DNA of 64,000 nucleotides. Source: Thermoanaerobaculia bacterium. Lineage in GTDB: Bacteria; Acidobacteriota; Thermoanaerobaculia; Multivoradales; JAIOJS01. The position numbers and the translations under genes are program-made. The notes beneath the pieces are model-generated. The model saw only the letters and a program-made list of their open reading frames with translations. It made no database searches and was not told the DNA's origin. Position 1 is the stretch's first letter, and every line of letters starts with the position of its first letter. Location of the stretch: NCBI GenBank assembly GCA_030429235.1, contig JAUIDB010000007.1, positions 116,677-180,676 of the forward strand, given 5' to 3'. Positions 36,264-56,373 of this stretch are shown piece by piece.

Positions 36264-37613
36264 TCATACGTCAGAGATCCCGAGATCCTTCAGCCGACGA
36301 TAGAGCGTCGACGCGTTGACCCCGAGCCGCCGGGCGGCTTCCTCCCGGTTTCCGCCGGTCGACTCCAGGACCTGTCGGATGTGCTGTGCCTCGTAGGCAT
36401 GGACGGCGCTGCGCAGGTCGTCCGAGGCCGGCCCGCCGCCGAGGTCGCCACGGATGTCGGTGGGAAGATCAGCAGCTCCCAGGACCTCGTTCTCCGCCAG
36501 GAGAACGGCTCTTTCGAGGACATTCTCGAGCTCCCGAACGTTGCCCTTCCAGGGTGCACTCATCACCGCCTGCATCGCGGCTCGATCGAGCCCCCTGACC
36601 CGGCGACCGAGCTTGCGGCTCAGCTTGCGCAGCAGATGCTCGACGAGTGGCGGAATGTCGCCGCGCCGCTCCCGGAGCGGTGGCATTCGGATCTCGATGA
36701 CCTTGAGGCGGTAGTAGAGGTCCTCGCGAAAGCGCCCCTCTTCGATCTCCCGAGAAAGATCCCGGTTGGTCGCGGCGACGACTCGGACATCCACCTTCAT
36801 CGGACGCGTGCCTCCGACGGGGAGGACCTCACCGTCCTCCAGCACGCGCAACAGCTTCGGTTGAAGCTCCAATGGGAGCTCACCGATCTCGTCGAGGAAG
36901 AGGGTGCCCCGGTCCGCCAACTCGAAATGGCCGGTTCGCTCCCGAATCGCGCCCGTGAAGGCCCCCTTCGCGTGCCCGAAGAGCTCGCTCTCGACCAGCT
37001 CTCGGGGTAGAGCGGAGCAGTTGACCGCCACGAAGGGGCGCTCCGAGCCGCGGCCCTGCTCGTGGAGAGAGCGGGCCGCGAGCTCCTTGCCGGTTCCGCT
37101 CTCGCCGGTCACGAGAACTGTCGAAGCAGCCGGGGCAATGCGCTCGATCAGAGTCCGGATGTGCTGCATCAGCTCGCTGTCGCCGACCAGCGTCGTCCCC
37201 GGTGACGCCTCCGCTGCAACACGCCTGAGATAGCGGACTTCACGACGTAGCCGCAGCTCTTCGGTGCAGCGCTCGATCTTCCGCAGGAGCTCGTCGGGCT
37301 CGAGCGGCTTGAGGAGGAAGTCGAGAGCCCCTCTTCGAAACGCCTCCACCGCCGTGTCCATCGTGCCGAACGCGGTGACGATCAGAATCGCCGCCTCGGG
37401 ACAGAGGGCAGAGAGTCGATCGGTCACCTCGACCCCGTTCAGCCCCGGCATCTGCAGGTCGCAGAGCACGACGTCCGGAGGCTCCTCGCCAGCCAGGCGC
37501 AGGCCCTCCTCACCGTCGGGGGCCGTCCGGCAACTGTACCCCTCGTCCCGGAGCAGACTCGCGAGATCCTCGCGGAAGACCTCTTCGTCGTCGATGATCA
37601 GGATGCGACTCAC
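36264..37613 (-). CDS. NtrC-family response regulator (sigma-54 activator)
   Basis: A 449-residue regulator: receiver domain with phospho-acceptor D52 ([10 protein letters not shown]), AAA+ domain with Walker A GESGTGKE (170-177) and GAFTGA (217-222), and a Fis-type helix-turn-helix at the C-terminus ([22 protein letters not shown]). It resembles ZraR/AtoC regulators of metal and envelope responses. It is translationally coupled to its kinase by a 4-base overlap. GAFTGA means it works only with sigma-54, and the three -24/-12 promoters of this island are its likely targets. Confidence 0.92.
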
Positions 37614-39163
37614 GAGAGGTCCCCCACCGGCAGAACCAGGACGAATCGTGCCCCGCCCTCCGGCCGGTTGTGAGCCTCGATGCGTCCGCCGTGTGCATTG
37701 GCGAACCCGGAAGAGATCGCCAGCCCGAGGCCCGTTCCGTCGGTTTTCGTGGTGAAGAAGGGTTCGAAGAGATTCTCCCGGGACGATTCCTCGAAGCCCG
37801 AGCCCTCGTCCTCGACGCTCAGGCGAAGCTCTCCTTCCTCTCGGGAGCCGCGGATCCGCACCGTTCCTCCCACGGGCATCGCTTCGGCGGCGTTCAAACA
37901 GAGGTTGAGGAGGATCTGACCCACCTGGTCGCGGACCGCATGAACCAACACGTCCTCGACGGAGACGTCGAGCCGAATCCCATCCGCTCGGGGGTCCAGC
38001 TCGACGATGCCGACCGTCTCGTCGACCAGCTCGCGAATGTTCCAGCGCGCCCGATCGCGACGCACCTTGCCGAAGTGAGAGACGCCGCGCAGAATCCTGG
38101 AGATCCGTTCGATCTGAGTTCGCAGAACCTGAAGGCTCTGGGTGAGGAACTCCTCGTCCGCGGCCCGGCGTTCGAGCAGGCGAAGCCGAGTCGTCATCGA
38201 AGCCAAGGGGTTCCCGATCTCGTGAGCGATGCCCGCCGCGAGCCGCCCGAGGACCGAGAGCTTTCCAGCTCGGATGGCCTCCTCTTCGAGCGCCTTACGA
38301 CCGGTCGTGTCCTCGATGACCTCGACGACCTGGATCACGCGCCCTGCTGGATTGCGCAGGGGTGTCGCCGAGTGCCGGAAGTAGCGCGTACTCCCCCTCG
38401 CGACCTCTCGACGGCGTTCGGCGGACGCCGGCTTGCCGGTCTCGAGGACCTCCCGGACGACGCACGTCTCGCACCGGCCCTCGCCCGGCTCGGCCAGCGG
38501 GCAATGGGCGTCCGGCTCTGGCCCGGCCCAGGCGAGCCACTCGGCGGCCCGCCCGCTTAGCCAGCGGAGAGTCGGACCGCGCTCGGCGAGCATCATCCCG
38601 ACCCCAGCCGCACCGACGACGCCCTCCAGACGCTCGCGAGCGAGATGAGAGGCGTCTGCTGCGTCCTCCAGAGTTCGTCGCTGGCGACCGACCAGGACCC
38701 CCACGACGATCCCGATGACCCAGAGGCTGAAGATCTCGCCCAGCTGGTTGAGATTTTCCAGGACCTGGCCGGACCAGCGGGAGGCGACGAAGGGCAGGTA
38801 GACGGCCGTGGTTGCCGCCGCTGCCGTCGCCCCGCCCCGGACCCCGAACCAGATTCCGGCCAGCACGACCGGAACCATGAAGAGCTTCCGCAACGCGATG
38901 TGGATCAGGTGGAGGGTCGCGCTCCCCATGGGCGTGGCCCAGTGCAGGAGCGCGATCCCGAAGACCAGGGCACCGATGACGGCCCAACGCAACCGGGGAC
39001 CTCGCCCCGCGACCTCGCGCGGGCCTGCACCCGGCAACGGTTCGCCCGGAAGCTTCGAACGAGGCGCCGCCAGACCGTCCCGAACGGAATCCGGAGGAGA
39101 CGGCAGGACCGACGGCTCGACGCGACCGTCGGCCGCCGCGGGGGCGGGAAGGGTCTCGCTCAC
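37610..39163 (-). CDS. sensor histidine kinase with Cys-motif PAS domain
   Basis: A 517-residue kinase starting at a GTG that overlaps the DUF3347 gene stop (GTGA). Several membrane helices (RWAVIGALVFGIALLHWA, KLFMVPVVLAGIWFGVRGG, EIFSLWVIGIVVGVLVG) resemble a DUF4118/MASE-like sensor. A PAS domain follows carrying C-x9-C-x2-C (HCPLAEPGEGRCETC), then H-box GIAHEIGNPLASM and ATPase motifs QILLNLCLNAAEA, FEPFFTTKTDGTGLGLAI. It pairs with the NtrC-type regulator. Metal or redox sensing by the Cys motif is an attractive inference. Confidence 0.88.
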   Translation of the reverse strand: MSETLPAPAAADGRVEPSVLPSPPDSVRDGLAAPRSKLPGEPLPGAGPREVAGRGPRLRWAVIGALVFGIALLHWATPMGSATLHLIHIALRKLFMVPVVLAGIWFGVRGGATAAAATTAVYLPFVASRWSGQVLENLNQLGEIFSLWVIGIVVGVLVGRQRRTLEDAADASHLARERLEGVVGAAGVGMMLAERGPTLRWLSGRAAEWLAWAGPEPDAHCPLAEPGEGRCETCVVREVLETGKPASAERRREVARGSTRYFRHSATPLRNPAGRVIQVVEVIEDTTGRKALEEEAIRAGKLSVLGRLAAGIAHEIGNPLASMTTRLRLLERRAADEEFLTQSLQVLRTQIERISRILRGVSHFGKVRRDRARWNIRELVDETVGIVELDPRADGIRLDVSVEDVLVHAVRDQVGQILLNLCLNAAEAMPVGGTVRIRGSREEGELRLSVEDEGSGFEESSRENLFEPFFTTKTDGTGLGLAISSGFANAHGGRIEAHNRPEGGARFVLVLPVGDLS

Positions 39164-39666
39164 CCCTCGACGATCTCTCCGCAGGTGGCCATCATCTGAC
39201 CATAGTACGGATTGCCGATGCTCTCGCCGTCGGGCTGGAGCCAGGACTGCTTCTTCATCGGACAATAGGCGACGACGGGGCCGCTCCCCGAGGCCTGGCG
39301 CCAACGGACCAGCGGCTTGGTCAGCTCGTAGAAGGCACCGCGGACGGGCTCGATGCCTTCGGCCTTCTCCAGCTTCTTGGCCGCTTCGATCGCCTCGGGC
39401 AGGAGGCTCTCGACCTCGGCGAGCTTGTCGGCAGGCACGCCGGCCGACTCCGCCGAGAGGTCCGCTCGGAGAGCCTCGAGAGCCTCGCGGAGCTTCTTCG
39501 CCGGCTCAGCTACGCCCTCGATCGAGTCTTGGACCAGCTGAGCGCGAATCGCCTCGTAGTGGGGCATCAGGGCGTCCATTCCGGCTGCGTCGGCAGCGGT
39601 CGCAGCCAGCGTCGGTGCGAGAAGCAGGCTCGCGACGGTGAGAATGAGGAGCTTCGTTCTACGCAT
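39160..39666 (-). CDS. DUF3347-type exported protein
   Basis: A 168-residue exported protein: signal peptide (MRRTKLLILTVASLLLAPTLAATA), a helical segment, and the C-terminal motif VAYCPMKKQSWLQPDGESIG followed by NPYYGQMMATCGEIVE. This motif is shared with the C-terminal region of many CusB-like adaptors (DUF3347) and probably binds Cu(I) through Cys/Met. AGGAGG precedes the ATG. It overlaps the RND gene by 8 bases and the kinase gene by 4, so it belongs firmly to the pump operon. Here the domain is a separate protein, perhaps a periplasmic donor to the pump. Confidence 0.8.
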   Translation of the reverse strand: MRRTKLLILTVASLLLAPTLAATAADAAGMDALMPHYEAIRAQLVQDSIEGVAEPAKKLREALEALRADLSAESAGVPADKLAEVESLLPEAIEAAKKLEKAEGIEPVRGAFYELTKPLVRWRQASGSGPVVAYCPMKKQSWLQPDGESIGNPYYGQMMATCGEIVEG

Positions 39667-42600
39667 GTTCGTTTCCTCCTGAAGGAGTGTCGGCCTCGCG
39701 GGGGCTCCACGAGGAGTCATGGGATTCGGACGGCGACGAGGCATCTTCCTCGGAGCCGTCCGTCGTCGGAACAGAGTCGCTCGTTTCGGGCAGATCGGCG
39801 GACCGTCCCCCCGGGAACAGAGGCCCGCTGCGCAGGCCGATCGAGCGCCAGATGAAATAGATCGCCGGGAAGACGGCAAGCTCTCCCACGAACGAGGTGA
39901 AGAGGCCGCCCACCATCGGGGCGGCGATCCGCTTCATCACATCGGCACCGGTGCCGGTGGCCCAGAGAATCGGCACCAACGCCAGGAAAGTCGTGACGAC
40001 GGCCATCGTCTTCGGACGGATCCGCTTGACGGCGCCGTGCTCGACGGCATCAGCCAGGTCCGTGACCGAGACCATCTTGCCGGCGGCCCGCCAGCGCTCC
40101 CAGGCGATGTCCAGGTAGAGGAGCATCACGACACCGGTCTCGGCCGCGAGACCCGCGAGCGCGATCAGTCCGACCCAGACGGCAATCGACCAGTTGTACC
40201 CGAGCCAGTAGAGCAGCCAGACCGAGCCGACGACGGCGAACGGCACGGCGATCAGCACGATCCCGGTTTTGACGATCGAGCGGGTGTTCAGATAGAGGAT
40301 GAAGAAGATCAGAAAGAGAGTGACCGGAACGATCAGCAGCAGCCGGGCCCGCGCCCGCTGCATGTACTCGTACTGCCCGGACCAGAAGATGGTGTAGCCG
40401 GCGGGCAGCTGCACCTCTTCGGCCACGACCTCCCGGGCGTGCTCCACCCAGGACCCGACATCGATCCCCCGCAGGTCGACGTAGACCCAGGCATTGGGCC
40501 GGGCGTTCTCCGATTTGATCCCCGGAGGTCCCTGGTGGAGGTCGATCGTCGCCAGTTGCCCCAACGGAACCTGGAGGCCGGACGGGGTCGAGACCAGGAT
40601 CTCCCGCAGGCGCTGTGCGTCGTCCCGGAGCTCCCGGGGATAGCGGATGTTGATCGGGTAGCGCTCGAGGCCCTCGACCGTCCAGGACACGTTCATCCCG
40701 CCGATCGCCGACTGGATGACGTCCTGCACGTCGCCGACGGTCAGGCCGTAGCGGGCTGCCGCCGTGCGGTCGATCTCGAAGTCGAAGTAGTTCCCGCCCA
40801 TCACCCGCTCGGCGAATGCGGAGAGCGTCCCGCGAAGCGGCTTGACGACCGCTTCGACCTCCTTGGCGAGGCGCTCGAGCTCGCGCAGATCCGGACCGGC
40901 GATCTTGATCCCGACCGGCGTCTTGATCCCCGTCGACAGCATGTCGATCCGGGTCTTGATCGGCATCGTCCAGGCGTTGGTCAGGCCGGGGAATTGGATC
41001 GCAGCATCCATCTCCTCGACGAGCCTCTCCTTGGTCATGCCCTCGCGCCACTCGGAGGGGTCCTTCAAAACGATCGTCGTCTCGATCATCGACAACGGCG
41101 CCGGGTCGGTCGCGGTCTCGGCCCGGCCCACCTTGCCGAAGACCGACTCGACCTCCGGGAACTCTCGGATGATCTTGTCGGTCTGCTGGAGCAGCTCCTT
41201 GGCCTTGGTGATCGAGATGCCCGGGAACGTGGTCGGCATGTAGAGCAGATCGCCCTCCCAGAGGGGAGGCATGAACTCCGAGCCCATCCGTTGCATCGGG
41301 ACGAAGGTGATCGCGACGAGCAGCGCCGCGACGACGACGATCGGCCAGCGCCAGCGCAGCGACCAACGGAGGAGCGGCGTGTAGAGCCGGTAGAGCAGCC
41401 GCGAGACCGGGTGGTTCTCCTCGCTGTGGATCTTGCCCCGGACGAACCAGAACATGAGCACCGGGATGATGGTCACCGCCAGTAGCGACGAAGCGGCCAT
41501 CGCGTAGGTCTTCGTGAAGGCCAGGGGTTTGAAGAGCCGGCCCTCCTGGTTCTCCAGCGTGAAGACCGGCATGAAGGAGACCGTGATCACGAGCAGCGTG
41601 AAGAAGAGCGTGGGTCCGACCTCCTGGGCCGAGCGGAGGATGATCTCGAAATGGCTCCGCTTGCCCCGCCACTCCTCGTAGTGCTTGTGGGCGTTCTCCA
41701 CCATCACGATCGAGGCGTCGACGAGGACACCGATCGAGATCGCGATCCCGCCGAGCGACATGATGTTCGCGCCCAGACCCTGCATCTTCATGACGATGAA
41801 GGAGATGAGGATCGAGACCGGGATCGAGAAGATCGCGACCAGCGCCGAACGGAAGTGGAAGAGGAAGACGATGCAGACCAGCGCCACGATGATCGACTCC
41901 TCGATCAGCGTGTGGGTGAGCGTGTCGATCGAGCGGTGGATCAGAGCCGTCCGGTCGTAGGCGACCCCGATCTCGACGTCCTCCGGAAGCCCCTGTTTCA
42001 GCTCGGCGAGCTTCGCTTTCACCCGGTCGATCGTCTCCAGGGTGTCGGCGCCCGAACGCACCACGACGATGCCACCGACCGTTTCCCCCTCGCCGTTCCA
42101 CTCCGCGAGGCCGCGGCGGATCTCTGGACCGATCGTCACCGTGGCCACGTCCCGGAGCAGGACCGGCGTCCCGCCGGGACCGACACCGAGGACGACCTCC
42201 TCGAGGTCCTGGACATCGCGCACGTACCCGAGCCCTCGGACCATGTACTCCCGCTCGGCCATCTCGACGACCCGGCCGCCGACGTCGTTGTTCGAGCGCT
42301 GGATCGCCCTCTTCACCTGCTGGAGCGGGATGTCGTAGGCCCGCAGCTTCACCGGGTCGACCTCGACTTGGTACTGGCGAACGAAGCCTCCGATCGACGC
42401 CACCTCCGAAACACCATCGACGGCGGTCAAGGCGTACTTGAGGTACCAGTCCTGAAGACTCCTCAGGTCGGCGAGCGATTTCTCGTCCGAGTTGAGGGTG
42501 TACATGAAAGCCCAGCCCACCCCCGTCGCGTCGGGCCCGAGCTGAGGCGCCACTCCCGACGGCAGCTGACGCGCCAGACCCGAGAGGTACTCGAGGACAC

Positions 42601-42925
42601 GCGACCGGGCCCAGTACATGTCGGTCCCGTCCTCGAAGATCACGTAGACGAAGGAGTAGCCGAAGAACGAGTACCCCCGGACGACCTTTGCGTAGGGCAC
42701 CGAGAGCATCTTGGTGGTGATCGGGTAGGTCACCTGGTCTTCGACGACCTCGGGAGCCTGGCCAGCGTACTCGGTGAAGATGATGACCTGGACGTCCGAC
42801 AGGTCGGGGATCGCGTCGAGCCGCGTTTCCCGAATCGCCCACACTCCTCCCAGGATGGCCATGACGAGGGCCACCACCATCACCAGCTGGTTGCGGAGCG
42901 ACCATTCGATGAGCTTGTCGAGCAT
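39659..42925 (-). CDS. cusA: CusA-like heavy-metal RND transporter
   Basis: A 1,088-residue RND pump. The N-terminus LDKLIEWSLRNQLVMVVALVMAILGGVWA and GGIAISIGVLVDASIVMVENAHK in TM4 place it with CusA/SilA (monovalent metal) rather than CzcA. AYDRTALIHRS and EFMPPLWEGDLLYMPTTFPGIS are also CusA-like. The ATG at 42925 has GAGGGA upstream; an ATG at 42961 would add 12 residues. An unusual acidic/Ser-rich cytoplasmic tail of about 55 residues follows the last helix. The adaptor and outer-membrane genes lie directly upstream, so a complete tripartite Cu(I)/Ag(I) pump is encoded. Confidence 0.92.
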   Translation of the reverse strand: MLDKLIEWSLRNQLVMVVALVMAILGGVWAIRETRLDAIPDLSDVQVIIFTEYAGQAPEVVEDQVTYPITTKMLSVPYAKVVRGYSFFGYSFVYVIFEDGTDMYWARSRVLEYLSGLARQLPSGVAPQLGPDATGVGWAFMYTLNSDEKSLADLRSLQDWYLKYALTAVDGVSEVASIGGFVRQYQVEVDPVKLRAYDIPLQQVKRAIQRSNNDVGGRVVEMAEREYMVRGLGYVRDVQDLEEVVLGVGPGGTPVLLRDVATVTIGPEIRRGLAEWNGEGETVGGIVVVRSGADTLETIDRVKAKLAELKQGLPEDVEIGVAYDRTALIHRSIDTLTHTLIEESIIVALVCIVFLFHFRSALVAIFSIPVSILISFIVMKMQGLGANIMSLGGIAISIGVLVDASIVMVENAHKHYEEWRGKRSHFEIILRSAQEVGPTLFFTLLVITVSFMPVFTLENQEGRLFKPLAFTKTYAMAASSLLAVTIIPVLMFWFVRGKIHSEENHPVSRLLYRLYTPLLRWSLRWRWPIVVVAALLVAITFVPMQRMGSEFMPPLWEGDLLYMPTTFPGISITKAKELLQQTDKIIREFPEVESVFGKVGRAETATDPAPLSMIETTIVLKDPSEWREGMTKERLVEEMDAAIQFPGLTNAWTMPIKTRIDMLSTGIKTPVGIKIAGPDLRELERLAKEVEAVVKPLRGTLSAFAERVMGGNYFDFEIDRTAAARYGLTVGDVQDVIQSAIGGMNVSWTVEGLERYPINIRYPRELRDDAQRLREILVSTPSGLQVPLGQLATIDLHQGPPGIKSENARPNAWVYVDLRGIDVGSWVEHAREVVAEEVQLPAGYTIFWSGQYEYMQRARARLLLIVPVTLFLIFFILYLNTRSIVKTGIVLIAVPFAVVGSVWLLYWLGYNWSIAVWVGLIALAGLAAETGVVMLLYLDIAWERWRAAGKMVSVTDLADAVEHGAVKRIRPKTMAVVTTFLALVPILWATGTGADVMKRIAAPMVGGLFTSFVGELAVFPAIYFIWRSIGLRSGPLFPGGRSADLPETSDSVPTTDGSEEDASSPSESHDSSWSPREADTPSGGNEHA

Positions 42926-42935
42926 GGCGAATCCC

Positions 42936-44657
42936 TCAGTGCCCCGAGTGGTTCGTGCCACTCGCCTCCGAAGGGGCCAGTCCGGTCTCCGTGGTGGTTG
43001 TGGCGCCAGAGGCAGCCGCCCGCTTGGAAGCGATCAGCTTCTGGATCGCCTCCCGCAGGTTGGACTCCGAATCGAGGAGGAACTGCGAAGAGGCGACGAT
43101 GTGCTCGCCCGCAGAGAGCCCCGAGAGGATCTGCACGTAGCGATCACCCGTGGCCCCGACGACCACGTTTCGCGGCGTGAATCGTCCTTCCCCTTCGGCG
43201 ACGATCACCAAGTTGCGCTCACCGGTCCTGATGAGCGCGATCGAAGGTACGGCGATCGCATCCTCGGCGGTGACGGGCTGGAATCGCACCGTCGCATACA
43301 TGCCGGCGCGAAGGCGCCCTTTCGGATTCGGCACTTCGATCCTCAGGCCGACGGTTCGCGTCTTCTCGTTGAGCTGAGGCTCGACGAAGCGAACCTCGCC
43401 CCGGAAGACCTCTCCTGGGAAGTACGAGAGTGAGATCTCCGCCTCGCTTCCGGTCTCGAGCCACGGAAGCTGATCTTCGAAGATCTCCACCGAGAGCCAC
43501 AGCGTCGACAGATCGGCGATGTGGAAGAGCTCCATCCCCGGTTTGACCGCCATCCCCTCGAGGCCCGGCATTCGCATCATGACGACGCCCGACGAGGGCG
43601 AGCGGACAGTCAGGGTGCGGATCGCCTTGCCCTGCTCTTCGATCGATCGCACCTGGTCCCCGCTGATGTCCCAGAAGGAGAGTCGCGTACGCGCGGCTTC
43701 GAGAAGGGCTTCGGCGCGGCGCCTGGCCTCCGGCGGAGCGCTTTCCAGCCGTCGGGCGAACGACAAGGCCGAGAGCAGCTCCTCCTGAGTCTGCACCAGC
43801 TCCGGCGAGTACACCTCGAAGAGAGCCTGTCCTTTCCGGACCGGCTCTCCGATGTAGTTGACGTACACCCTCTCGATGTACCCCTGGTACTTCGTGGTGA
43901 CCGAGACCATCTTCTGCTGGTCGTAGTCGAGGTAGCCGACGGTGCGGATCTCCCGCGAGAGACTTCGGTGCTCGACCGGAGCGGTCACGACGTTCATGTT
44001 CTGGACGACCGCGGGGTCGATCGTGACCGTGGCTCCTTCGGCCACCGGAGCCTGGTCGGCGTAGACTGGAACGAAGTCCATGCCCATCGCGTCCTTAGCC
44101 GGGACGTCGGAGACGACGCCGGGGTCATGGGGGTGGCGGTAGTAGAGGATCTCCCGCTCCACTCCGGTGGCTCCGGACGCCATCGGACCGCCCGAAGTCT
44201 CGATCGGGACGAGCTGGCGCCCGTCGATCGGGCACTCGCCGGGTTCCTCCTCGACGATCTGCGGATGGAATTCGCAAGTCCATTCCCTCGCGGCCGCCGG
44301 CCCTGGAGCCGGGAGCGCGACCGTCGCGCTGTGGTCGTCCGCTTCGAGGGGCACCAAGTTCATGCCGCAGATCGGGCACTGGCCCGGTTCTTCGAGGATG
44401 ACCTCGGGGTGCATGCCGCAGGTCCAGAGCCCGGAATCCGACTCGGTGTTCGGGTCCCCGGTCTCGGTGGCCCCGCCGTGGCCAAGGGTCTCGTGCAGCC
44501 AAGTGTCGACCGAATGAACTCCGAACGGGTCAGCCAGCAAGAAGACGGCCAAGCTCACGCCAACGAGAAGCCAGCCGAGGTTTGCGAGCATTCTGCGAGT
44601 CTGCGGCCTGGGGCCCGAGGGCTCCCCATATTCGGCGTCGAATCGTTCGTCTGTCAT
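42936..44657 (-). CDS. cusB: CusB-like adaptor with heavy-metal-binding modules
   Basis: A 573-residue membrane-fusion protein. After an N-terminal anchor (MLANLGWLLVGVSLAVFLLA) come three heavy-metal-binding-domain repeats: WTCGMHPEVILEEPGQCPIC, the degenerate WTCEFHPQIVEEEPGECPID, and a YYRHPHDP...AMGMDFVPVY form. The adaptor body follows with VSVTTKYQGYIERVYVNYIG and the barrel regions. These modules are typical of CusB proteins that receive Cu(I) from periplasmic donors. The second repeat has lost its last Cys (CPID instead of CPIC). The gene start overlaps the outer-membrane-factor stop (ATGA). Confidence 0.9.
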   Translation of the reverse strand: MTDERFDAEYGEPSGPRPQTRRMLANLGWLLVGVSLAVFLLADPFGVHSVDTWLHETLGHGGATETGDPNTESDSGLWTCGMHPEVILEEPGQCPICGMNLVPLEADDHSATVALPAPGPAAAREWTCEFHPQIVEEEPGECPIDGRQLVPIETSGGPMASGATGVEREILYYRHPHDPGVVSDVPAKDAMGMDFVPVYADQAPVAEGATVTIDPAVVQNMNVVTAPVEHRSLSREIRTVGYLDYDQQKMVSVTTKYQGYIERVYVNYIGEPVRKGQALFEVYSPELVQTQEELLSALSFARRLESAPPEARRRAEALLEAARTRLSFWDISGDQVRSIEEQGKAIRTLTVRSPSSGVVMMRMPGLEGMAVKPGMELFHIADLSTLWLSVEIFEDQLPWLETGSEAEISLSYFPGEVFRGEVRFVEPQLNEKTRTVGLRIEVPNPKGRLRAGMYATVRFQPVTAEDAIAVPSIALIRTGERNLVIVAEGEGRFTPRNVVVGATGDRYVQILSGLSAGEHIVASSQFLLDSESNLREAIQKLIASKRAAASGATTTTETGLAPSEASGTNHSGH

Positions 44658-46063
44658 GGCTTGTCTCCGTCGCGGAGGGTCTCGCTCGGAGCGCCGAGAG
44701 CGCCCTCGAGCTGTGCGTGGAGGATCAGTGAATCTGCGTGAGCCCGAGCCGAGGCGATTCGAACGTCCAGCAGGACACGCTCGGCATCGAGGAGGTCGAG
44801 GGCGCTCTGGGAGCCGGAGGCATAGGCCGCCTCGGCGGAGCGCAAGGCCTCTTCGGCCTGGATGACGAGGAGCTCGTCGAAGAGAGCGCGCTGGTCGAGA
44901 GTCAGGGGCAACCGTGAAGTCAGATCGCCCAGGCTTCCTTCGATCTCTGCCAGGATGCCCCGCGTTCGATCCCGAGCCGCGCTCTCGCGTGCGGTCGCCT
45001 CGAGAACCCCCGCGGCGAGCTTCTTACGGCGCACCGGCAGGTTCACTCCGAGGGTCAGTCCGATGATGTCGTCGCCGTTGTCCGGCGGAGGCATGGCGAT
45101 GCCGGCCGGGTCCTCCCGGTCGCCGACGATCGTGACCCCGAGCCCGATGGTGAAGTCGGGGCGGTACTGCTTCTCGGCCAGGTCGACGCCGAGTCCCGCA
45201 GCCTCCGTCAGGATCTTCGACCGGCTCACCTCCGGCCGATGAGCCGCGGCGACGTCCAGGAGGCTCGAGCTCGCCGGAAGGACGACCTCGGGTGCTTCGG
45301 CGAGCCGGAACGCCGGGAGCGGATCGCCGGCAGGCCGGTCGCGCAGGGCGTTCAGCGACGCGACGAGAGTGGAGCGCCGGCTGTCGATCCGGAGGAGGCG
45401 GTTGTCGTCCTTCGTGATCTCCGCCTGGAGCTTGACGACCGCCTGGCCCAGCCCGACCCCAGATGCGTAGCGTGCCCGGGCCAACTCCTCGAAGTGGGAA
45501 AGCGTGTCCCGGTCCTCGAGCACCGCTTCCCTCTCGGCCTCGAGGTAAGCCAGCTCCCAAGCGAGTCGCCGGGCCTCGGTGACGAGCTTCAGACGCTTCG
45601 CTTCGACCTCGAGACGGCTCCCCGCCGCTCCGAAGAGAGCCTGCTGCTCCTTCAGCTTCAGGGTGCCGAACCAAGGGAAGCGCTGCGAGAAGGAAGCCGA
45701 GATGAGTTGAGGTCCCACTCTCGTTTCCGGCGTCGAGAGGAAGGCCGTCAGGCTGGCCATCGGATCGGGCAGAGCGCGCACCTGAGGCGCCCGCTGCGCG
45801 GCAGCCTCGGCCTCGGCGCGAAGGCGCGCCAGCTCGGGGTTGCGGTCCAGAATCTCGTCGACGACCTCACCGAGATGGGCAGGTAGGCCGGCAAGGAGTC
45901 GTTCCGCAGCGTCTGCGTACGTTGTCTGTACTTGCGACTGGGCGGGCGCCGGTGCGATGAGTGCAGCGAGCGTCAAGCCGAGCAGAAGAACCGGGACTCG
46001 CGAGAGCCCACGGGCCGGGTCCGTTCGGGTGAACGCGGCGACTGCAATGGGGTTGTCGATCAT
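44654..46063 (-). CDS. TolC-family outer-membrane factor (CusC-like)
   Basis: A 469-residue outer-membrane efflux protein with an export signal (VPVLLLGLTLAALIAPAPAQ). It has two TolC-type coiled-coil repeats, including the segment RNPELARLRAEAEAAAQRAPQVRALPDP. It provides the exit duct for the CusA/CusB pump. It is the first gene of the block that runs to 34,957; a consensus sigma-54 promoter lies about 50 bases upstream with two upstream elements, so the whole pump-plus-sensor operon is probably under activator control. Confidence 0.87.
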   Translation of the reverse strand: MIDNPIAVAAFTRTDPARGLSRVPVLLLGLTLAALIAPAPAQSQVQTTYADAAERLLAGLPAHLGEVVDEILDRNPELARLRAEAEAAAQRAPQVRALPDPMASLTAFLSTPETRVGPQLISASFSQRFPWFGTLKLKEQQALFGAAGSRLEVEAKRLKLVTEARRLAWELAYLEAEREAVLEDRDTLSHFEELARARYASGVGLGQAVVKLQAEITKDDNRLLRIDSRRSTLVASLNALRDRPAGDPLPAFRLAEAPEVVLPASSSLLDVAAAHRPEVSRSKILTEAAGLGVDLAEKQYRPDFTIGLGVTIVGDREDPAGIAMPPPDNGDDIIGLTLGVNLPVRRKKLAAGVLEATARESAARDRTRGILAEIEGSLGDLTSRLPLTLDQRALFDELLVIQAEEALRSAEAAYASGSQSALDLLDAERVLLDVRIASARAHADSLILHAQLEGALGAPSETLRDGDKP

Positions 46064-46108
46064 GTCGTCTCTCCTGCGAACCAGCTAGAGCCTCGGTGAT
46101 CTCGAGTA

Positions 46109-46123
46109 GCAAAGGCCGTGCCA
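46109..46123 (-). promoter_or_regulatory. sigma-54 promoter of the Cus-like operon
   Basis: Minus-strand TGGCACGGCCTTTGC matches TGGCACG-N4-TTGC perfectly with GG and GC 10 bases apart. Transcription should start near 46097, about 34 bases before the CusC-like start codon. Confidence 0.88.
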
Positions 46124-46176
46124 CCATTCGCGGGGGCGCGAGGGCTCGTCTTGCTGGCCGACCGGGGTGCCGAGGT

Positions 46177-46228
46177 CTTGCAGAAATGCGAGAGCTGGAG
46201 GGCTCGAGCCTTGCAGACTCGAGAGCTG
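46177..46228. promoter_or_regulatory. tandem upstream elements of the Cus-like operon
   Basis: CTTGCAGAAATGCGAGAGCTG (46177-46197 apart from its last base) and CTTGCAGACTCGAGAGCTG (46210-46228) share CTTGCAGA and CGAGAGCTG separated by 4 and 2 bases. They lie roughly 80-130 bases upstream of the predicted start, the usual place for NtrC-type activator binding. A copy of the same element occurs at 52714-52730. A further GTCTTGC lies at 46148. Confidence 0.65.
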
Positions 46229-46342
46229 TGGATCTCGGTGAGTCAGCTCAGCGGCAGTCCAGAGGTTGCTGGACCTGCCGACATCCCTGCGCCGGCCGAT
46301 GACGTCTGCCCTCTGCTCCGGTCGTGCCGCCGCGCGGGTGAA

Positions 46343-46642
46343 TCAGACTTCTCCGATCAGGAAGGCACCGCCCGCAATCCCGAGAAGCGACGGGACGACA
46401 GCGCTGGTTCCGATGAACAGGGAAGAGGCAGAGAACAGAATCACGAGCACGGACCACCCGCGACGATGAGAGGGGTGATGCCAAAGAAAGGAAACGCTGA
46501 CGAGGATCGCCAGCCCGAAGAACAAGCAGGGCCATGGCCGATCCATGTGTCCGAGGACGGGTGCTGCTGCCAGCCACAGACCGGCAGCGCCTGAAAGGAC
46601 GGCTCCTGCGATCGAGAGCCGCATCGACTTTTCTTCGCGCAT
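46343..46642 (-). CDS. small membrane protein, possibly SPW-like
   Basis: A 99-residue protein with three to four hydrophobic helices (LSIAGAVLSGAAGLWLAAAP, CLFFGLAILVSVSFL, GWSVLVILFSASSLFIG, LLGIAGGAFLIGEV). The pattern recalls SPW-repeat membrane proteins, but I cannot confirm it. AAGGGAGA lies upstream of the ATG at 46642; a second ATG is at 46624. It follows the CopB-type ATPase by 25 bases and ends the second minus-strand metal block. Its role is unknown. Confidence 0.65.
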   Translation of the reverse strand: MREEKSMRLSIAGAVLSGAAGLWLAAAPVLGHMDRPWPCLFFGLAILVSVSFLWHHPSHRRGWSVLVILFSASSLFIGTSAVVPSLLGIAGGAFLIGEV

Positions 46643-46667: not shown

Positions 46668-48761
46668 TCAGGCCTTCAACAGACGAGCGTTGATCGCTAC
46701 GATGACCGTGGAGACCGACATCAAGACGGCGCCGAAGGCCGGTGAGAGCACGATGCCCCAAGGATGGAGAACACCGGCAGCCAGTGGGATCGCGACGACG
46801 TTGTAGCCGGTCGCCCACCACAGATTCTGGACCATCTTGCGATAGGTCGAGCCGGCCAGCGCAACGATGCTCGCGACGTCGCGCGGATCGGACCGAACCA
46901 GGACGATGTCGGCGGACTCGATGGCCACGTCGGTGCCGGCGCCAATGGCAATTCCCACGTCGGCGGCGACCAGCGCTGGTGCGTCGTTGACGCCATCCCC
47001 GGTCATCGCCACGGTCAACCCCCGCTTCTGCACCTCTCGGACCTTCTCGGCCTTCTCGTGCGGCAGCACCTCCGCGAAGTAGCCGTCCAGGCCCAGCTCC
47101 TCGGAGACCCATCGGGCGACAGCCTCGGCATCGCCGGTCAACATCATCGACCTGATCCCCATGGATTCGAGGCGTGTGAGCGCTTCCCGTGACTCCTCCC
47201 GAATCACATCGGCCAGGGCCAGGGCCCCGATCGGTCGCTCGTCTTCGAGCACGTAGACGACGGTCTTTCCCTGCTCGGCAACTCGCCGTACGGTCGCGTC
47301 GTCGACTTCGAGTCCCTGTTCTCGGAGGTACCCAGGGCTCACGACCTTGAGGTTCCGACCCTCGATCAGGGCCTCGGCACCCTTGCCGGGAATGGCAGCG
47401 AAGCGTTTCGGGGCCGCATGGTCGAGACCGCGTTCTTGCGCGGCGCGCACGATGCCAGCCGCGATGGGATGTTCCGACTGGCTTTCGAGCCCGGCGGTCA
47501 ATCGCAGGACGTCATTCTCGGGGACTTCAGCGAGGGAGATGACGTCGGTGACGCCGAACCGTCCCTCCGTGAGGGTTCCTGTCTTGTCGAAGATGACCGC
47601 CTGGAGCTCGCGTGCCCGCTCGAAGGCCGAGCGATCCCTGATCAATAAGCCGTTCGAGGCCGAGATCGCGGTCGACACGGCGACGACCAGCGGTACGGCG
47701 AGGCCCAAGGCGTGTGGGCATGCGATCACCATCACGGTGACCATCCGCTCCAGTGCGAAGTCGAAGCCCTTTCCGGCGAGTAGCCAGGCGACGAGGGTGA
47801 GCAGGCCTACCCCAAGAGCCGTGTAGGTGAGCCACGAAGCAGCACGGTTCGCCAGGTCCTGGGTTCTGGAACGAGATTCCTGCGCCTCTCGCACCATCCT
47901 GACGACCTGCGACAGATAGGTTTCTTCACCCGTCTTGGCGACTTCGAAGGTGAAGGCGGACTCGCCGTTCACGGAGCCCCCGATCACTTCGTCTCCTTCT
48001 CCTCGCTCGATCAGGCGGCTCTCGCCGGTGAGCATCGACTGGTCGACAGCAGAGCGCCCCTCGACCACCACTCCGTCAGTCGGGATTTTCTCGCCGGGCT
48101 TCACGAGCACGCGCTGCCCCGAGGTGAGACTCGTGACCTCCACTTCGCGGGTAGAGCCGTCCTGCTGCACGAGGTGGGCGGTCGACGGCATGAGCTGCAC
48201 CAGCGCCTCGAGTGCTCGCGACGCACCCATGACCGATCGCATCTCGATCCAATGACCGAGGAGCATGATGTCGATCAGAGTCACCAACTCCCAGTAGAAG
48301 ACCTGCCCCTCGAGTCCCAACGCGACCGCCGTGCTGTAGGCCCAGGCGACCGAGATCGCCATTGCAATCAGCGTCATCATGCCCGGCTTGCGTTGGGCGG
48401 CCTCGCCCCAGAATCCTCGCAGGAAGGGCCAGCCGCCGTAGAAGAAGACGACAGTGGCGATCAGAGCTTGGAGATAGCCGTCTCCCGGAAACGAAAGGCT
48501 CTCCTCCAGGCCGGCGAGCCGTTGCAGCATGGGGGCTAGCACCAGCACGGGTATCGACAGCACGAGCGACACCCAGAAGCGCCTCCGGAACTCGGCGACC
48601 ATCTGGCCATGATCGTGCCCTCGGGAATGGTCGTCGTCTCCATTCGTTCGGGAGTGCTGATGGGAGCTTGCCGGATTCGTTTTCATCTCGTCGCCGCCGG
48701 CTGCATGGTGCTCGTCCGGGCGTCCCATATGGCGTTTCTCGGGGTGATCGTGACTCCTCAT
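46668..48761 (-). CDS. copB: CopB-type P1B ATPase, His-rich N-terminus
   Basis: A 697-residue copper-exporting P-type ATPase. The N-terminal ~55 residues are His-rich (HDHPEKRHM, HSRGHDHGQM) and there is no MxCxxC domain. The TM6 motif is CPH (348-350, VIACPHALGL), the hallmark of the CopB/P1B-3 class. The phosphorylated Asp is D392 in DKTGTLTEG and the actuator TGE is in SMLTGES. CPH-type pumps have been linked to Cu(II)/Cu(I) export to the periplasm. The start overlaps the stop of the lycopene-cyclase-domain gene (ATGA). It complements the CPC-type ATPase at 56,422. Confidence 0.92.
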   Translation of the reverse strand: MRSHDHPEKRHMGRPDEHHAAGGDEMKTNPASSHQHSRTNGDDDHSRGHDHGQMVAEFRRRFWVSLVLSIPVLVLAPMLQRLAGLEESLSFPGDGYLQALIATVVFFYGGWPFLRGFWGEAAQRKPGMMTLIAMAISVAWAYSTAVALGLEGQVFYWELVTLIDIMLLGHWIEMRSVMGASRALEALVQLMPSTAHLVQQDGSTREVEVTSLTSGQRVLVKPGEKIPTDGVVVEGRSAVDQSMLTGESRLIERGEGDEVIGGSVNGESAFTFEVAKTGEETYLSQVVRMVREAQESRSRTQDLANRAASWLTYTALGVGLLTLVAWLLAGKGFDFALERMVTVMVIACPHALGLAVPLVVAVSTAISASNGLLIRDRSAFERARELQAVIFDKTGTLTEGRFGVTDVISLAEVPENDVLRLTAGLESQSEHPIAAGIVRAAQERGLDHAAPKRFAAIPGKGAEALIEGRNLKVVSPGYLREQGLEVDDATVRRVAEQGKTVVYVLEDERPIGALALADVIREESREALTRLESMGIRSMMLTGDAEAVARWVSEELGLDGYFAEVLPHEKAEKVREVQKRGLTVAMTGDGVNDAPALVAADVGIAIGAGTDVAIESADIVLVRSDPRDVASIVALAGSTYRKMVQNLWWATGYNVVAIPLAAGVLHPWGIVLSPAFGAVLMSVSTVIVAINARLLKA

Positions 48762-51863: not shown

Positions 51864-52565
51864 TCACGCATCGTTACGTGTTTTCTCGCAGCCGCAGTCG
51901 GTCAGCACGGGAAGGTCACAGCCCCGCTGGCAGTGCCTTTTCATCTCGAGACGCAAGGAGGCCTTGGCCCGAAAGAGCCGCACGCGGGCGTTCCCGGGCT
52001 TGATGCCCAGTCTTCTGGCGATCTCCCGAGGTGGAATCCCTGCGATCGCGACCGCGAGTAGGAGGTCTCGAGAACTGGTTGGAATGGCCTCGAGGGCCCG
52101 CAGAGAGCACGGGCATCGCCGCGACGAGCTCGCGCTATCGACCTCGGAATGCTCGGCTCTCGCGTACAAGGCGAGGCGTGCAATCGCTCTGTCTCGACGT
52201 CTGCAGCGGCGAAGATGCATCCTGATGGTGTTGCGGAGAATGGAGTGCACCCAAGCGCCCACCAGGTCGGGGTCGTTCAGGGTCTTCTGTCCTCGCAAGG
52301 CCTTGACGGCTGTATCGTGAACGAGGTCCTGTGCGAGATCTCGGTCACCCAGGGCCTTCTGGGCGCGACTCAGGAGTGCTGAGTGATTGCGCTCGAGGAA
52401 GGCGCGGACTGGACCTTCACTGCCAGCACCAAGAGAGGACTCACATTCGTTCTTCCGGCGAAGCTGGCCGGGAGTAGAGAATCGTTCTTCGCTTGTTTCG
52501 CCTGGCGTCCGCCGTACTGGAGCTGCTGGAGCCGCCGCCGATTCCGTGATTGGGGCTTCGTTCAT
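51864..52565 (-). CDS. ECF sigma factor with Cys motifs (CorE-like)
   Basis: A 233-residue ECF sigma factor: sigma-2 (ALLSRAQKALGDRDLAQDLVHDTAVKAL, AWVHSILRNTIRMHL) and sigma-4 (SRDLLLAVAIAGIPPREIARRLGI). It carries a CPC motif in the linker (C151, C153) and a C-terminal Cys cluster (C212, C216, C224, C226 in HCQRGCDLPVLTDCGC). No anti-sigma gene is adjacent. CorE sigma factors of myxobacteria are switched directly by metal through a CxC and a C-terminal Cys-rich domain; by analogy this protein may sense copper itself. AGGAGA precedes the ATG. A sigma-54-like promoter lies upstream. Confidence 0.85.
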   Translation of the reverse strand: MNEAPITESAAAPAAPVRRTPGETSEERFSTPGQLRRKNECESSLGAGSEGPVRAFLERNHSALLSRAQKALGDRDLAQDLVHDTAVKALRGQKTLNDPDLVGAWVHSILRNTIRMHLRRCRRRDRAIARLALYARAEHSEVDSASSSRRCPCSLRALEAIPTSSRDLLLAVAIAGIPPREIARRLGIKPGNARVRLFRAKASLRLEMKRHCQRGCDLPVLTDCGCEKTRNDA

Positions 52566-52614: not shown

Positions 52615-52629
52615 GCAATCGTCGTACCG
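52615..52629 (-). promoter_or_regulatory. candidate sigma-54 promoter of the ECF sigma block
   Basis: Minus-strand CGGTACGACGATTGC keeps GG and GC 10 bases apart and the TTGC box, with two departures from TGGCACG in the -24. The predicted start (~52603) is about 40 bases before the sigma gene. Confidence 0.55.
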
Positions 52630-52690
52630 CCCACCTCGAGCCCGTGAAGCCTGCGTTGTAGGCTGCGACGAGCTCGACCTCACGCAAGAT

Positions 52691-52730
52691 TGCAAGATCT
52701 CGAAACCTCGGATCTTGCAGATTCGAGAGG
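52691..52730. promoter_or_regulatory. upstream element between divergent ECF sigma and permease genes
   Basis: TGCAAGATC (52691-52699) and GATCTTGCA (52711-52719) are a perfect 9-base inverted repeat with an 11-base spacer. The right arm continues into CTTGCAGATTCGAGAGG (52714-52730), the same element found twice upstream of the Cus-like operon. It lies 147-149 bases from the start codon in both minus-strand cases, measured to the nearer matching copy. Confidence 0.68.
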
Positions 52731-52838: not shown

Positions 52839-54059
52839 ATGGACTGGATCGGAACATGGGCAGATGCAGCGCGAACAGCAACTGGATTCTTCTGGAAGGC
52901 TGGCTGGGCCTTCGTCTTGGGCTACACCGTCTCGGGCCTGATCCAGGCCTTCGTTCCGAAGGCTCGGCTGACCCGACGGATGGGAGACCCTGGACTCCAG
53001 AGCGTTTCTCTCGCGACGATCTTCGGCGCGATCTCCTCCTCCTGCTCGTTTGCCGCTCTTGCCGCTGCCCGCTCCCTGGTCCTCAAGGGAGCCCACTTCG
53101 TGGCGGCCGTGGCCTTCATGTTCGCGTCGACCAATCTCGTCATCGAGCTCGGCGTGCTCATCTTCATCTTCCTCGGGTGGCAGTACGTCGCAGCGGAGAT
53201 CGTCGGCGGCGTGATCCTCATCGCGATCAGCTCGATCCTGATTCGCCTGACCTATCCGAAGAAGTGGTTCGAGCAGGCTCGGGAGAAGGTCGAAGGTGAC
53301 TCCGAAGAGGAGGAGGACGACTTCGACTGGAAGGAGAGGATCCGGAATCGACGGGGCTGGCATCTGGTCGGCCACAAGTTCGCGATGGACTGGAAGATGG
53401 TCTGGGAGGAGATCGTCATCGGCTTCACCGTCGCGGGATTCGTCGCGGTCCTCGTCCCCGCCTCCTTCTGGGCGAAGATCTTCCTGATCGACGCCGGGGG
53501 CTCGGTTCCTCAGTGGCTCGTCCTGCTCGAGAACGCCGCAGTGGCCCCGTTCGTCGCGGCGGCCACCTTCATCGGCTCGATGGGCAACATCCCGCTCGCG
53601 ACCGTGCTCGCCTCCAACGGCGTCCTCTTCGCCGGGATCATGGGGTTCATCTACTCGGACCTCATGGTGCCGCCCCTGGTCGCGATCAACGCGAAGTACT
53701 ACGGCAAGCGGGTCGCCCTCTACATCGCCGGCGTCATGTTCGTCTCGATCGTCGCGACGGCGCTGATCCTCCACTACGGCTTCGCGGCCCTGGGCATCAC
53801 ACCCGAAACCGATCGCGCGATCGACCACGTCAGCCGCTTCGCGATCGACTACACCTTCTGGCTGAACCTGGCGATGGTCGGTCTCGCGGCCTGGATGGTC
53901 CGCCTGCACCGCGCACACGTGACGGAGCACACGGACGGGATGGACCACGACCACGCAGAAGACGGCGTCTCGACCAAGCGGCTGGTCGTCTACGCGATGC
54001 TCGTCCTCGTAGCCGGCGGCTTGGTGGCAGGTTGGCTCACCGGACGTTTCGTCGGGTGA
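52839..54059 (+). CDS. DUF318/ArsP-like permease
   Basis: A 406-residue membrane permease with about eight to ten helices and a charged central loop (EGDSEEEEDDFDWKERIRNRRG). Family motifs are SSSCSFAALAAARSLVLKGA in the first half and GSMGNIPLATVLASNGVLFAGIMGFIYSDLMVPP in the second. Members export metals, metalloids or organoarsenicals; here the neighbours point to copper or zinc. The GGGAGG site lies seven bases before the ATG. It is divergent from the ECF sigma block and heads the plus-strand block. A His/Asp-rich loop (HTDGMDHDHAED) is near the C-terminus. Confidence 0.82.
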   Translation: MDWIGTWADAARTATGFFWKAGWAFVLGYTVSGLIQAFVPKARLTRRMGDPGLQSVSLATIFGAISSSCSFAALAAARSLVLKGAHFVAAVAFMFASTNLVIELGVLIFIFLGWQYVAAEIVGGVILIAISSILIRLTYPKKWFEQAREKVEGDSEEEEDDFDWKERIRNRRGWHLVGHKFAMDWKMVWEEIVIGFTVAGFVAVLVPASFWAKIFLIDAGGSVPQWLVLLENAAVAPFVAAATFIGSMGNIPLATVLASNGVLFAGIMGFIYSDLMVPPLVAINAKYYGKRVALYIAGVMFVSIVATALILHYGFAALGITPETDRAIDHVSRFAIDYTFWLNLAMVGLAAWMVRLHRAHVTEHTDGMDHDHAEDGVSTKRLVVYAMLVLVAGGLVAGWLTGRFVG

Positions 54060-54119
54060 GCACTGGTGAGAGCCTCTCGGCGTGACACGCTTCCGAAGCA
54101 ACGCCCCATGGAGATCTCG

Positions 54120-55256
54120 ATGCCTTCGACCCTTGAACAACTGACCTCGCTCCCCAACCTCCACCCGGCGCTCGTCCACTTTCCGATCGCTCTGGCGCCG
54201 GTGGCGGTTCTCTTCGACCTCGCCGCTCTCCTGCAGCCCTCTCGACGAAGCGAGTGGGCGCGAGGCGCTTCTGCCTTGTGGGTCCTCGCGGCGCTCGGCG
54301 CGTGGGCTGCCTGGTGGGCGGGAGGTCGCGCGGCCGACTCCGTCGTCGGGCTCTCGGCCCGAGCCCAGGCTCGCGTCGGGGAGCACTCGGATTGGGGTCT
54401 CTGGACGCTGTGGGCGTTCGTCGCCATCGCGGTGGCCCGAGTCGTCCTGGGTCACCTGCGGCCCTCCGGAAAGACGCTGCCGGCCCTCGGCGCCGTTCTC
54501 GGTCTCGGCGCCTGCGCCCTCGTCGGCACCACGGCCGACCTCGGCGGTGGTCTCGTCTATCAGCTCGGCGTGGCCGTCGAGCGGCCGGAGTCCGGGGGCA
54601 CGGCGACCGGCGTCCCGAAGACTTCTTCCTCGAATCCATCGGCTGCCGACACCGCGACCGCCGGAATGGTCGACGATCCCGCGAACCGCCTCGAGACCCG
54701 GGAGGACGGGACCGTCGTCTGGAGCCCCGCACCGGGAGACGCGACGGCCTTGGGGTCGATCCTCCAGCCGGTGAGCGGAGACGTGGGTGAAGCGGTCCGA
54801 GTGGGCGAATCGGAGGGCTCCGGTTCCAAGGGGCTCACCCTGGAGGTCTCCGGCCGGACGCTCCTGACCCTTCCCGGAGACTTCAGGGACGTCGAGGTCG
54901 CTGCCGTGGTCGACGTCGAGGAGTTCTCCGGCACGTTCGGCCTCGCGCATCACGTCCGTGACGCCGCGCGGGCCGGCCTCCTGACCGTCGGTGTGACGGA
55001 CGGGACCTTCACTCTCCTCACCTTGGATGCGGAGTCGGACCCGAAGATCCTCGACGAAGCGACGTCCCTTCTGCCGGAGGGTCCGCTGGAGCTCGCCGTC
55101 ACCGCCGCGGGTCGTCATCTCCGTGGGACCCTGGCCGGCAAGCTCGTCGTGCACGGCCACGAACCCGCGCTTCCCCGGGGAGGCGCTGGAATCCTCGTCG
55201 ACGGTGAGGGCTCGATTCGACTCGAGAGCCTCGTCGTCACCCCGATCGACGACTGA
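54120..55256 (+). CDS. DUF2231 membrane domain fused to an exported beta-sandwich domain
   Basis: A protein of about 378 residues. The first ~150 residues are a DUF2231-type four-helix membrane domain (NLHPALVHFPIALAPVAVLFD, with conserved His in HP and HFP). A Ser/Thr/Pro linker leads to a concanavalin-like beta-sandwich (FRDVEVAAVVDVEEFSGTFG to GIRLESLVV-like end). The DUF2231 domain often occurs beside metal and haem genes. The fusion is unusual. The ATG at 54120 has GGAGA five bases upstream; an ATG at 54108 is the alternative. It follows the permease by 60 bases. Confidence 0.75.
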   Translation: MPSTLEQLTSLPNLHPALVHFPIALAPVAVLFDLAALLQPSRRSEWARGASALWVLAALGAWAAWWAGGRAADSVVGLSARAQARVGEHSDWGLWTLWAFVAIAVARVVLGHLRPSGKTLPALGAVLGLGACALVGTTADLGGGLVYQLGVAVERPESGGTATGVPKTSSSNPSAADTATAGMVDDPANRLETREDGTVVWSPAPGDATALGSILQPVSGDVGEAVRVGESEGSGSKGLTLEVSGRTLLTLPGDFRDVEVAAVVDVEEFSGTFGLAHHVRDAARAGLLTVGVTDGTFTLLTLDAESDPKILDEATSLLPEGPLELAVTAAGRHLRGTLAGKLVVHGHEPALPRGGAGILVDGEGSIRLESLVVTPIDD

Positions 55257-55271
55257 ACCGGAGTCAACGCC

Positions 55272-55718
55272 ATGAATCATCGCGCGCTTGCTGCTGCCTT
55301 CCTCCTCCTCCTCCCCTCGATGCTGACGGCCTCTGCAGGAGCAGAAGCCGAGCTCTCGACCCCCGAGGCCGTCGTCGACGCCTTTCACGAGGCGCTCGGC
55401 GGAGGGGACCGTCAGGCCGTGCTCGACCTGCTGACCGAAGACGTCCTGATCTTCGAATCGGGGGGCGCCGAGCTCTCACGGGACGAGTACGCTCACCACC
55501 ATCTCGGGTCCGACATGGCGTTCTCGGCCGCGACCGAGAGCAAGGTCGTCGATCGACGCCGCGGAGGAGACGACGAGACGTCCTGGGTCCTGACCCGGAC
55601 CGAGACCTCGGGCACGTTCCGGGACCGAGAGATCTCCGCCCGAGGCACGGAGACGATGATCCTCAGCCGCGGCGAAAGCGGGTGGAAGATCGTCCACATT
55701 CACTGGTCCTCGCGATGA
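55272..55718 (+). CDS. exported NTF2-like (SnoaL/DUF4440) protein
   Basis: A 148-residue protein with a signal peptide (NHRALAAAFLLLLPSMLTASAGA) and an NTF2-like cone fold: TPEAVVDAFHEALGGGDRQAVLDLLTEDVLIFE, then beta strands ending ESGWKIVHIHWSS. Many such proteins bind small ligands; catalytic residues are not evident. His pairs (AHHHLGSDM) could bind metal. It begins 15 bases after the DUF2231 fusion gene and is cotranscribed. Confidence 0.8.
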   Translation: MNHRALAAAFLLLLPSMLTASAGAEAELSTPEAVVDAFHEALGGGDRQAVLDLLTEDVLIFESGGAELSRDEYAHHHLGSDMAFSAATESKVVDRRRGGDDETSWVLTRTETSGTFRDREISARGTETMILSRGESGWKIVHIHWSSR

Positions 55719-55721
55719 GTG

Positions 55722-55771
55722 CGAACGAAGGATCTATCCGCCGTGTTTCCGTTCGGATAGCGTCTCGTTCG
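55722..55771. promoter_or_regulatory. nested inverted repeat before the second ECF sigma gene
   Basis: CGAACGA (55722-55728) pairs with TCGTTCG (55765-55771), and inside it CTATCCG (55734-55740) pairs with CGGATAG (55754-55760). The two concentric 7-bp stems flank a 13-base loop and end at the GTG start codon. This could be an operator or an RNA structure hiding the start. Confidence 0.5.
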
Positions 55772-56373
55772 TGAAGACTTCCGAGCACCCCGGACCCGCG
55801 ACTGGCTCGGTCTCGCGCGACGTCACCACGGCCCTGGTCGAGAACCATCGACGGTTTCTCGCCTTCGTCGAGCGCCGGGTGGGAAGCCGCCAGGACGCCG
55901 AGGAGATCGTGCAGTCGGCTTTCGTACGGGGCCTCGAACGAGCAGACCAGATCGAGGACCAGGGGCGGGCGGTGGCCTGGTTCTACCAGGTGCTGCGCAA
56001 CGCGATCGTCGACCACTGGCGGGCGGAAGGGCTCGCCACGCGAGCCGAGGATGCGTTGAAGGGGGAATGGCATGACGCGGTGACGCCGCCCCCGGAGCTG
56101 GAGAGCGAGATCTGCGGCTGTTTCGAGCCTCTGCTCCCGACGCTCAAGGACGAGTACTCCGAGATCCTGCAGCGGGTCGACCTCGGAGGAGAACGCCCGG
56201 TCGAGGTCGCGGAAGATCTCGGGATTACCGCCAACAACGCGATGGTGCGTCTCCACCGCGCCCGCCGGTCGCTGCGAGACGCGTTGGTGCGCTCGTGCCG
56301 AACCTGCGCCGAGCACGGGTGTCTCGACTGCTCCTGCGGCTCAAAGATGAAACGACCGAAGAAGGGACTGTAA
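55771..56373 (+). CDS. second Cys-motif ECF sigma factor (CorE-like)
   Basis: A 200-residue ECF sigma factor starting at GTG. Sigma-2 includes RQDAEEIVQSAFVRGLERA and AVAWFYQVLRNAIVDHWR; sigma-4 includes RPVEVAEDLGITANNAMVRLHRARRSL. A CGC motif lies in the linker (C115, C117) and the C-terminus has C176, C179, C184, C187 and C189 with H182 (SCRTCAEHGCLDCSC). No anti-sigma factor gene is adjacent. The pattern matches metal-switched CorE sigma factors. It directly precedes the CopA-type ATPase, TolC-like and multicopper oxidase genes, which are natural targets. No ribosome binding site is obvious. Confidence 0.87.
   Translation: MKTSEHPGPATGSVSRDVTTALVENHRRFLAFVERRVGSRQDAEEIVQSAFVRGLERADQIEDQGRAVAWFYQVLRNAIVDHWRAEGLATRAEDALKGEWHDAVTPPPELESEICGCFEPLLPTLKDEYSEILQRVDLGGERPVEVAEDLGITANNAMVRLHRARRSLRDALVRSCRTCAEHGCLDCSCGSKMKRPKKGL

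Follow-up and report, generated by a model that had tools for sequence, protein, structure and literature searches.

The Cus-type tripartite copper/silver pump of Escherichia coli, CusCFBA, stands under a two-component system, CusRS, whose OmpR-type regulator, CusR, acts together with sigma-70. A second E. coli pair, ZraSR, couples a metal-responsive kinase to a sigma-54-dependent NtrC-type regulator, ZraR, which controls zraP and its own genes and is not known to control a Cus pump. In Myxococcus xanthus, the sigma-54-dependent pair CorSR (kinase plus NtrC-type regulator) lies inside the copper operon it controls, curA, which has putative sigma-54 promoters; copA is there a target of both CorSR and the ECF sigma factor CorE (PMC3707914). 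A sigma-54-type promoter and half-sites of another M. xanthus regulator, Nla28, are listed before CusA/CusB genes (MXAN989; PMC9765219); Nla28 is, however, a starvation regulator rather than part of a metal-operon-encoded pair, and its half-sites are unlike the CTYGCA-N4-TGCRAG dyad described below. Sigma-54-dependent copper two-component systems are thus already known, and the initial annotation of the locus studied here, from which the CorSR precedent was absent, overstated its novelty, which is moderate. Set against the open-access literature, what is new is the enhancer code and the coupling to a Cus pump and, possibly, a cascade from sigma-54 to a metal-gated ECF sigma factor.

The window, the whole 64,000-nucleotide stretch analysed, carries what we read from its sequence as a self-inducing sigma-54-dependent copper/silver efflux operon under its own kinase–regulator pair (probability about 0.85). 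The operon lies on the minus strand, opening with a CusC-like outer membrane efflux protein (44654–46063; Pfam OEP), a CusB-like adaptor with an HMBD heavy-metal-binding domain (42936–44657; HlyD_D23 and HMBD) and a CusA-like RND pump (39659–42925, ATG at 42925; TIGR00914, 1175 bits; best solved relative CusA, 3k07). These are followed by a DUF3347-like secreted protein (39160–39666; just under the curated cut-off, conserved in L117 and L118) whose start overlaps the CusA stop, a membrane histidine kinase with a PAS domain (37610–39163), whose likely GTG start at 39163 overlaps the DUF3347-like stop, and an NtrC-type response regulator (36264–37613; receiver, AAA+ with GAFTGA and Fis-type HTH, by Pfam and sequence). 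A Crp/Fnr-like regulator (35633–36220) is a probable further member and a secreted protein of no family (34957–35562) a possible one. From CusC to the regulator the genes overlap or abut, end to start, making a single transcript the natural reading. The layout first proposed, a CusC-like gene sharing its operon with a kinase and a GAFTGA-containing NtrC-type regulator, is retained, with the addition of the DUF3347 gene between CusA and the kinase that it had omitted. Aligned full-length to E. coli CusA (3k07), the pump keeps the LLYM, PLxM and RIDM methionines, which we take to be the three metal-binding methionines of that protein. By family (CusA/CzcA) and by its CusB and CusC partners, the pump is predicted to be a Cus-type copper/silver RND.

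Each described system differs from this arrangement. The regulator combines HTH_8 with Sigma54_activat in place of the OmpR-type winged helix, works in prediction from a -24/-12 promoter and is encoded, like its kinase, downstream within the pump operon; the contrast with canonical CusRS drawn in the initial annotation was correct. ZraSR is among the top family matches for both kinase and regulator, each far below curated cut-offs (solved relative 1ojl). The curA operon encodes a multicopper oxidase and a P-type ATPase but no RND pump, and periplasmic sensing is predicted for CorS (PMC3707914). Orthology of the regulator to CorR (the gene taken as such, beside a multicopper oxidase cluster) was considered and rejected: CorR is 44% identical, falls outside the separate 100/100 clade formed by the window regulator and its orthologues, and has a different Fis-type recognition helix, and its locus is without dyad pairs.

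Upstream of CusC lies a predicted sigma-54 promoter, TGGCACGGCCTTTGC (46109–46123, minus), with 0 mismatches to the consensus TGGCACG-N4-TTGC and with the -24 GG and -12 GC present; 45 nt separate the end of the box from the CusC ATG at 46063, and the predicted +1 is at about 46097. It is the only perfect copy in the 64-kb window and one of 5 in the 4.85-Mb genome; the chance of such a copy in a given 150-nt stretch on the right strand is ~8e-5. The two nearest orthologous operons, in G027 (regulator 90% identical) and G042 (81%), keep the box as TGGTACGAGGCTTGC (L121) and TGGCACGAGCCTTGC (L122), at nearly the same distance before CusC and with dyads upstream; elsewhere in the order, CusC genes are without it. 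A four-way alignment places conservation mainly in two dyads, the -24/-12 box and the ribosome site. The genome encodes a single, intact RpoN (220 bits to Sigma54_DBD, RpoN box ARRTVAKYRDE). The perfect box about 50 bases before the CusC-like gene, as originally described, therefore stands, conserved in orthologues.

Two repeats (46177–46197 and 46210–46228) lie ~80–131 nt upstream of the predicted start; the expectation by chance, from 100 shuffles, is 0.00. Tandem elements had been placed 80–130 bases above the start, and their presence and position hold up. Their unit, given as CTTGCAGA-N2-4-CGAGAGCTG, does not: that form is not conserved among relatives and was dropped in favour of a 16-bp imperfect dyad, CTYGCA-N4-TGCRAG, the only form that is. 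The proximal candidate activator site, CTCGCATTTCTGCAAG (46177–46192, minus), matches this dyad exactly, and the distal one, CTCTCGAGTCTGCAAG (46210–46225, minus), has 2 mismatches, with a start-to-start spacing of 33 bp. In pattern searches, the resulting 49-nt paired dyad occurs at exactly two places in the 4.85-Mb genome, the CusC promoter and 52681–52729.

Across the order, 9 of the 59 genomes searched carry an orthologue of the regulator (59–100% identity); the remaining genomes offer nothing closer than paralogues at about 50% identity or below. The 49-nt pattern is present in 7 of the 9 carriers and in 2 of the 50 non-carriers (p=3.5e-6), a comparison in which the consensus had been refined on some of the promoters later counted, although this refinement has little bearing on the order-wide search or on the spacing period. 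The two carriers missed by the pattern have paired dyads at 32-bp spacing, and paired dyads with a sigma-54 box are found in 9/9 genomes with the regulator orthologue. Over 1.88 Mb of loci, several of those from carriers being split in metagenome assemblies, the dyad–promoter module occurs only in carriers, and reversed and Markov-shuffled controls yield zero modules. In the rest of the phylum, allowing 2 mismatches, paired dyads appear in 4 of 247 genomes, two of which are carriers.

In six distant carriers, the regulator gene is followed by the paired dyads and then a sigma-54 box, and the genes beyond the box include a further RND pump, P-type ATPases and uncharacterised small proteins. CusC genes of the distant carriers (regulator 59–62% identical) are without a sigma-54 box and the promoter instead precedes other metal genes, which indicates that control of Cus by the regulator is specific to the window group. 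In these genomes, the first gene behind the dyad promoter encodes a conserved small protein of ~100 residues with no known family (L114:18163, L115:17256, L116:17364 and, just downstream, L119:4494; for example MKRETDIDLQTRHLMKALEPALRSHLG...); in L119 it is followed by a P-II-like protein and a CusC-like gene. Five of the nine orthologous regulators (L113, L114, L115, L116 and L119) carry GAFSGA in place of GAFTGA, a string also found in sigma-54 regulon papers (for example PMC4641369), and the same five have a longer dyad-to-promoter spacing of 99–102 bp.

The pairing of the system with other RND pumps and P-type ATPases in distant carriers bears on what the kinase senses. If the circuit is right, its signal could be another metal, or a redox or thiol cue read by cytoplasmic cysteines of the kinase, rather than copper or silver. 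The kinase is unlike the periplasmic sensor of CusS, and its PAS domain has a conserved CPL...CxxC pattern (in the window, G027, G042, G020, G023 and G016); we advance these cysteines, as a hypothesis, as a candidate metal or redox sensor responding to a cytoplasmic metal/thiol signal. Set against this are the three CusA methionines kept from E. coli and a neighbouring P-type ATPase (46668–48761, minus; CPH-type with a His-rich N-terminus) that scores as a copper exporter (TIGR01511, 616 bits). We consider a signal other than copper or silver unlikely, though by no means far-fetched.

With 29 matches to the operon regulator in the genome, other activators exist, and one of these could drive the sigma-54 promoter while the kinase and regulator of the operon serve other targets. 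Three observations make that very improbable: few genomes without an orthologue of this regulator have the paired dyad; in distant carriers the dyad adjoins the regulator gene; and the nine carrier regulators form a 100/100 clade in which the recognition helix, STLYRRL, is identical in 9/9.

Among distinct promoters, the proximal dyad and the -24 box are 56, 66–69, 79–81, 90, 99–102 or 111 bp apart, in steps of ~11 bp. The best period is 11.0 bp (mean vector 0.80–0.84; p 0.0001–0.003 across different ways of collapsing related promoters), two weaker, longer opposite-strand candidates (137 and 208 bp) of already counted pairs having been left out of the test. Such stepping is expected of an activator that would face polymerase on one side of the helix, and not of chance similarity. 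That the box and repeats are fortuitous or coding-related, with the operon on a sigma-70 promoter, is scarcely credible: a GC-rich genome does give chance consensus boxes (77 sites with at most one mismatch), but the box is conserved in orthologues, the sites are paired and their spacing phased, and neither a sigma-70-like promoter nor a terminator was found in 46030–46400.

In the self-inducing circuit that we favour, excess metal would activate the membrane kinase, perhaps via the PAS cysteines, and the kinase would phosphorylate the NtrC-type regulator. Regulator dimers would bind the two 16-bp dyads, three helical turns apart, oligomerise and contact sigma-54 RNA polymerase, which would wait 69 bp away on the matching helix face, at the -24/-12 box; ATP hydrolysis by the regulator would then open the promoter. 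Besides the CusCBA pump and the DUF3347-like protein, the transcript would encode the kinase and regulator that induced it. A positive loop closed in this way is the best reading because the genes from CusC to the regulator overlap so tightly. A closed circuit had been proposed at the outset; the conserved box, the paired and phased sites that accompany regulator orthologues, the intact RpoN, the same-operon kinase and regulator and the CusA methionines all argue for it.

The same regulator would probably also switch on a second promoter, as a second tier. A sigma-54-like box with 2 mismatches, CGGTACGACGATTGC (52615–52629, minus), is preceded by predicted proximal (52681–52696, 1 mismatch) and distal (52714–52729, 2 mismatches) activator sites, again 33 bp apart on the minus strand. 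Behind it lies an ECF sigma factor gene (51864–52565, minus; Sigma70_r2/r4_2) whose product has a linker CPC and, at the C-terminus, a cysteine tail, CQRGCDLPVLTDCGC. Members of the CorE-like family are defined by a CxC in the sigma2–sigma4 linker and a C-terminal Cys-rich domain (PMC8999054), marks of metal-gated sigma factors (PMC8999054, PMC3107203), and the protein has both; its tail has four cysteines against six in CorE. Following it in the same direction are genes for an ICMT-like protein, DUF5676, an AAA_28 protein, a lycopene-cyclase-like membrane protein and the CPH-type copper ATPase, and relatives of several genes of this cluster also lie behind dyad promoters in other carriers. 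In M. xanthus, CorSR and CorE are parallel inputs to copA, whereas at the present locus a sigma-54 promoter is predicted in front of the ECF gene itself. The box has 2 mismatches and no ECF orthologue under the same control was found in other carriers, so this arm rests on one genome, and both points count against it. A second CorE-like ECF gene (55771–56373, plus; linker CGC, tail CRTCAEHGCLDCSC) adjoins a CPC-type P-type ATPase with two HMBD. Genes for an ArsP-type permease, DUF2231 and SnoaL-like proteins (52839–55718, plus) diverge from the second promoter; in G027 (L200), copies of the DUF2231 and SnoaL genes with 96–97% identity precede the CusC promoter.

A plasmid-type RepA gene (34012–34953, plus) adjoins the operon. 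G027, which belongs to another family, has a copy at 96% identity next to a dyad promoter (L205:2689–1748); G001, of the same genus as the window genome, is without the regulator. The RepA copies and the absence of the regulator from G001 suggest a mobile metal island. A plasmid origin of the regulator itself was rejected, as its plasmid relatives are at most 47.5% identical. We suggest tentatively, at slightly less than even odds, that a single sigma-54 activator governs a heavy-metal regulon that spreads horizontally, through an enhancer code of its own made of paired 16-bp dyads set 33 bp apart and in helical phase with the promoter. In this genome the regulon would extend to a metal-gated CorE-like ECF sigma factor, a two-tier cascade in which sigma-54 would yield a further sigma factor that senses metal directly.

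The candidate activator sites occur in pairs, keep phase with the promoter and are seldom found outside carriers of the regulator. They offer a predicted code, readable from sequence, for DNA binding by a sigma-54 activator linked to metals, in a lineage that has been little studied. A scan for this code would list the regulon, whose members behind the shared promoter are pumps, P-type ATPases and several uncharacterised small membrane proteins. The series of spacings, each one helical turn from the next, amounts to a natural experiment on activator–promoter geometry. The locus suggests a cascade from sigma-54 to a metal-gated ECF sigma factor and indicates that sigma-54 control can extend to Cus pumps, an arrangement expected to bring tight off-states and strong induction.
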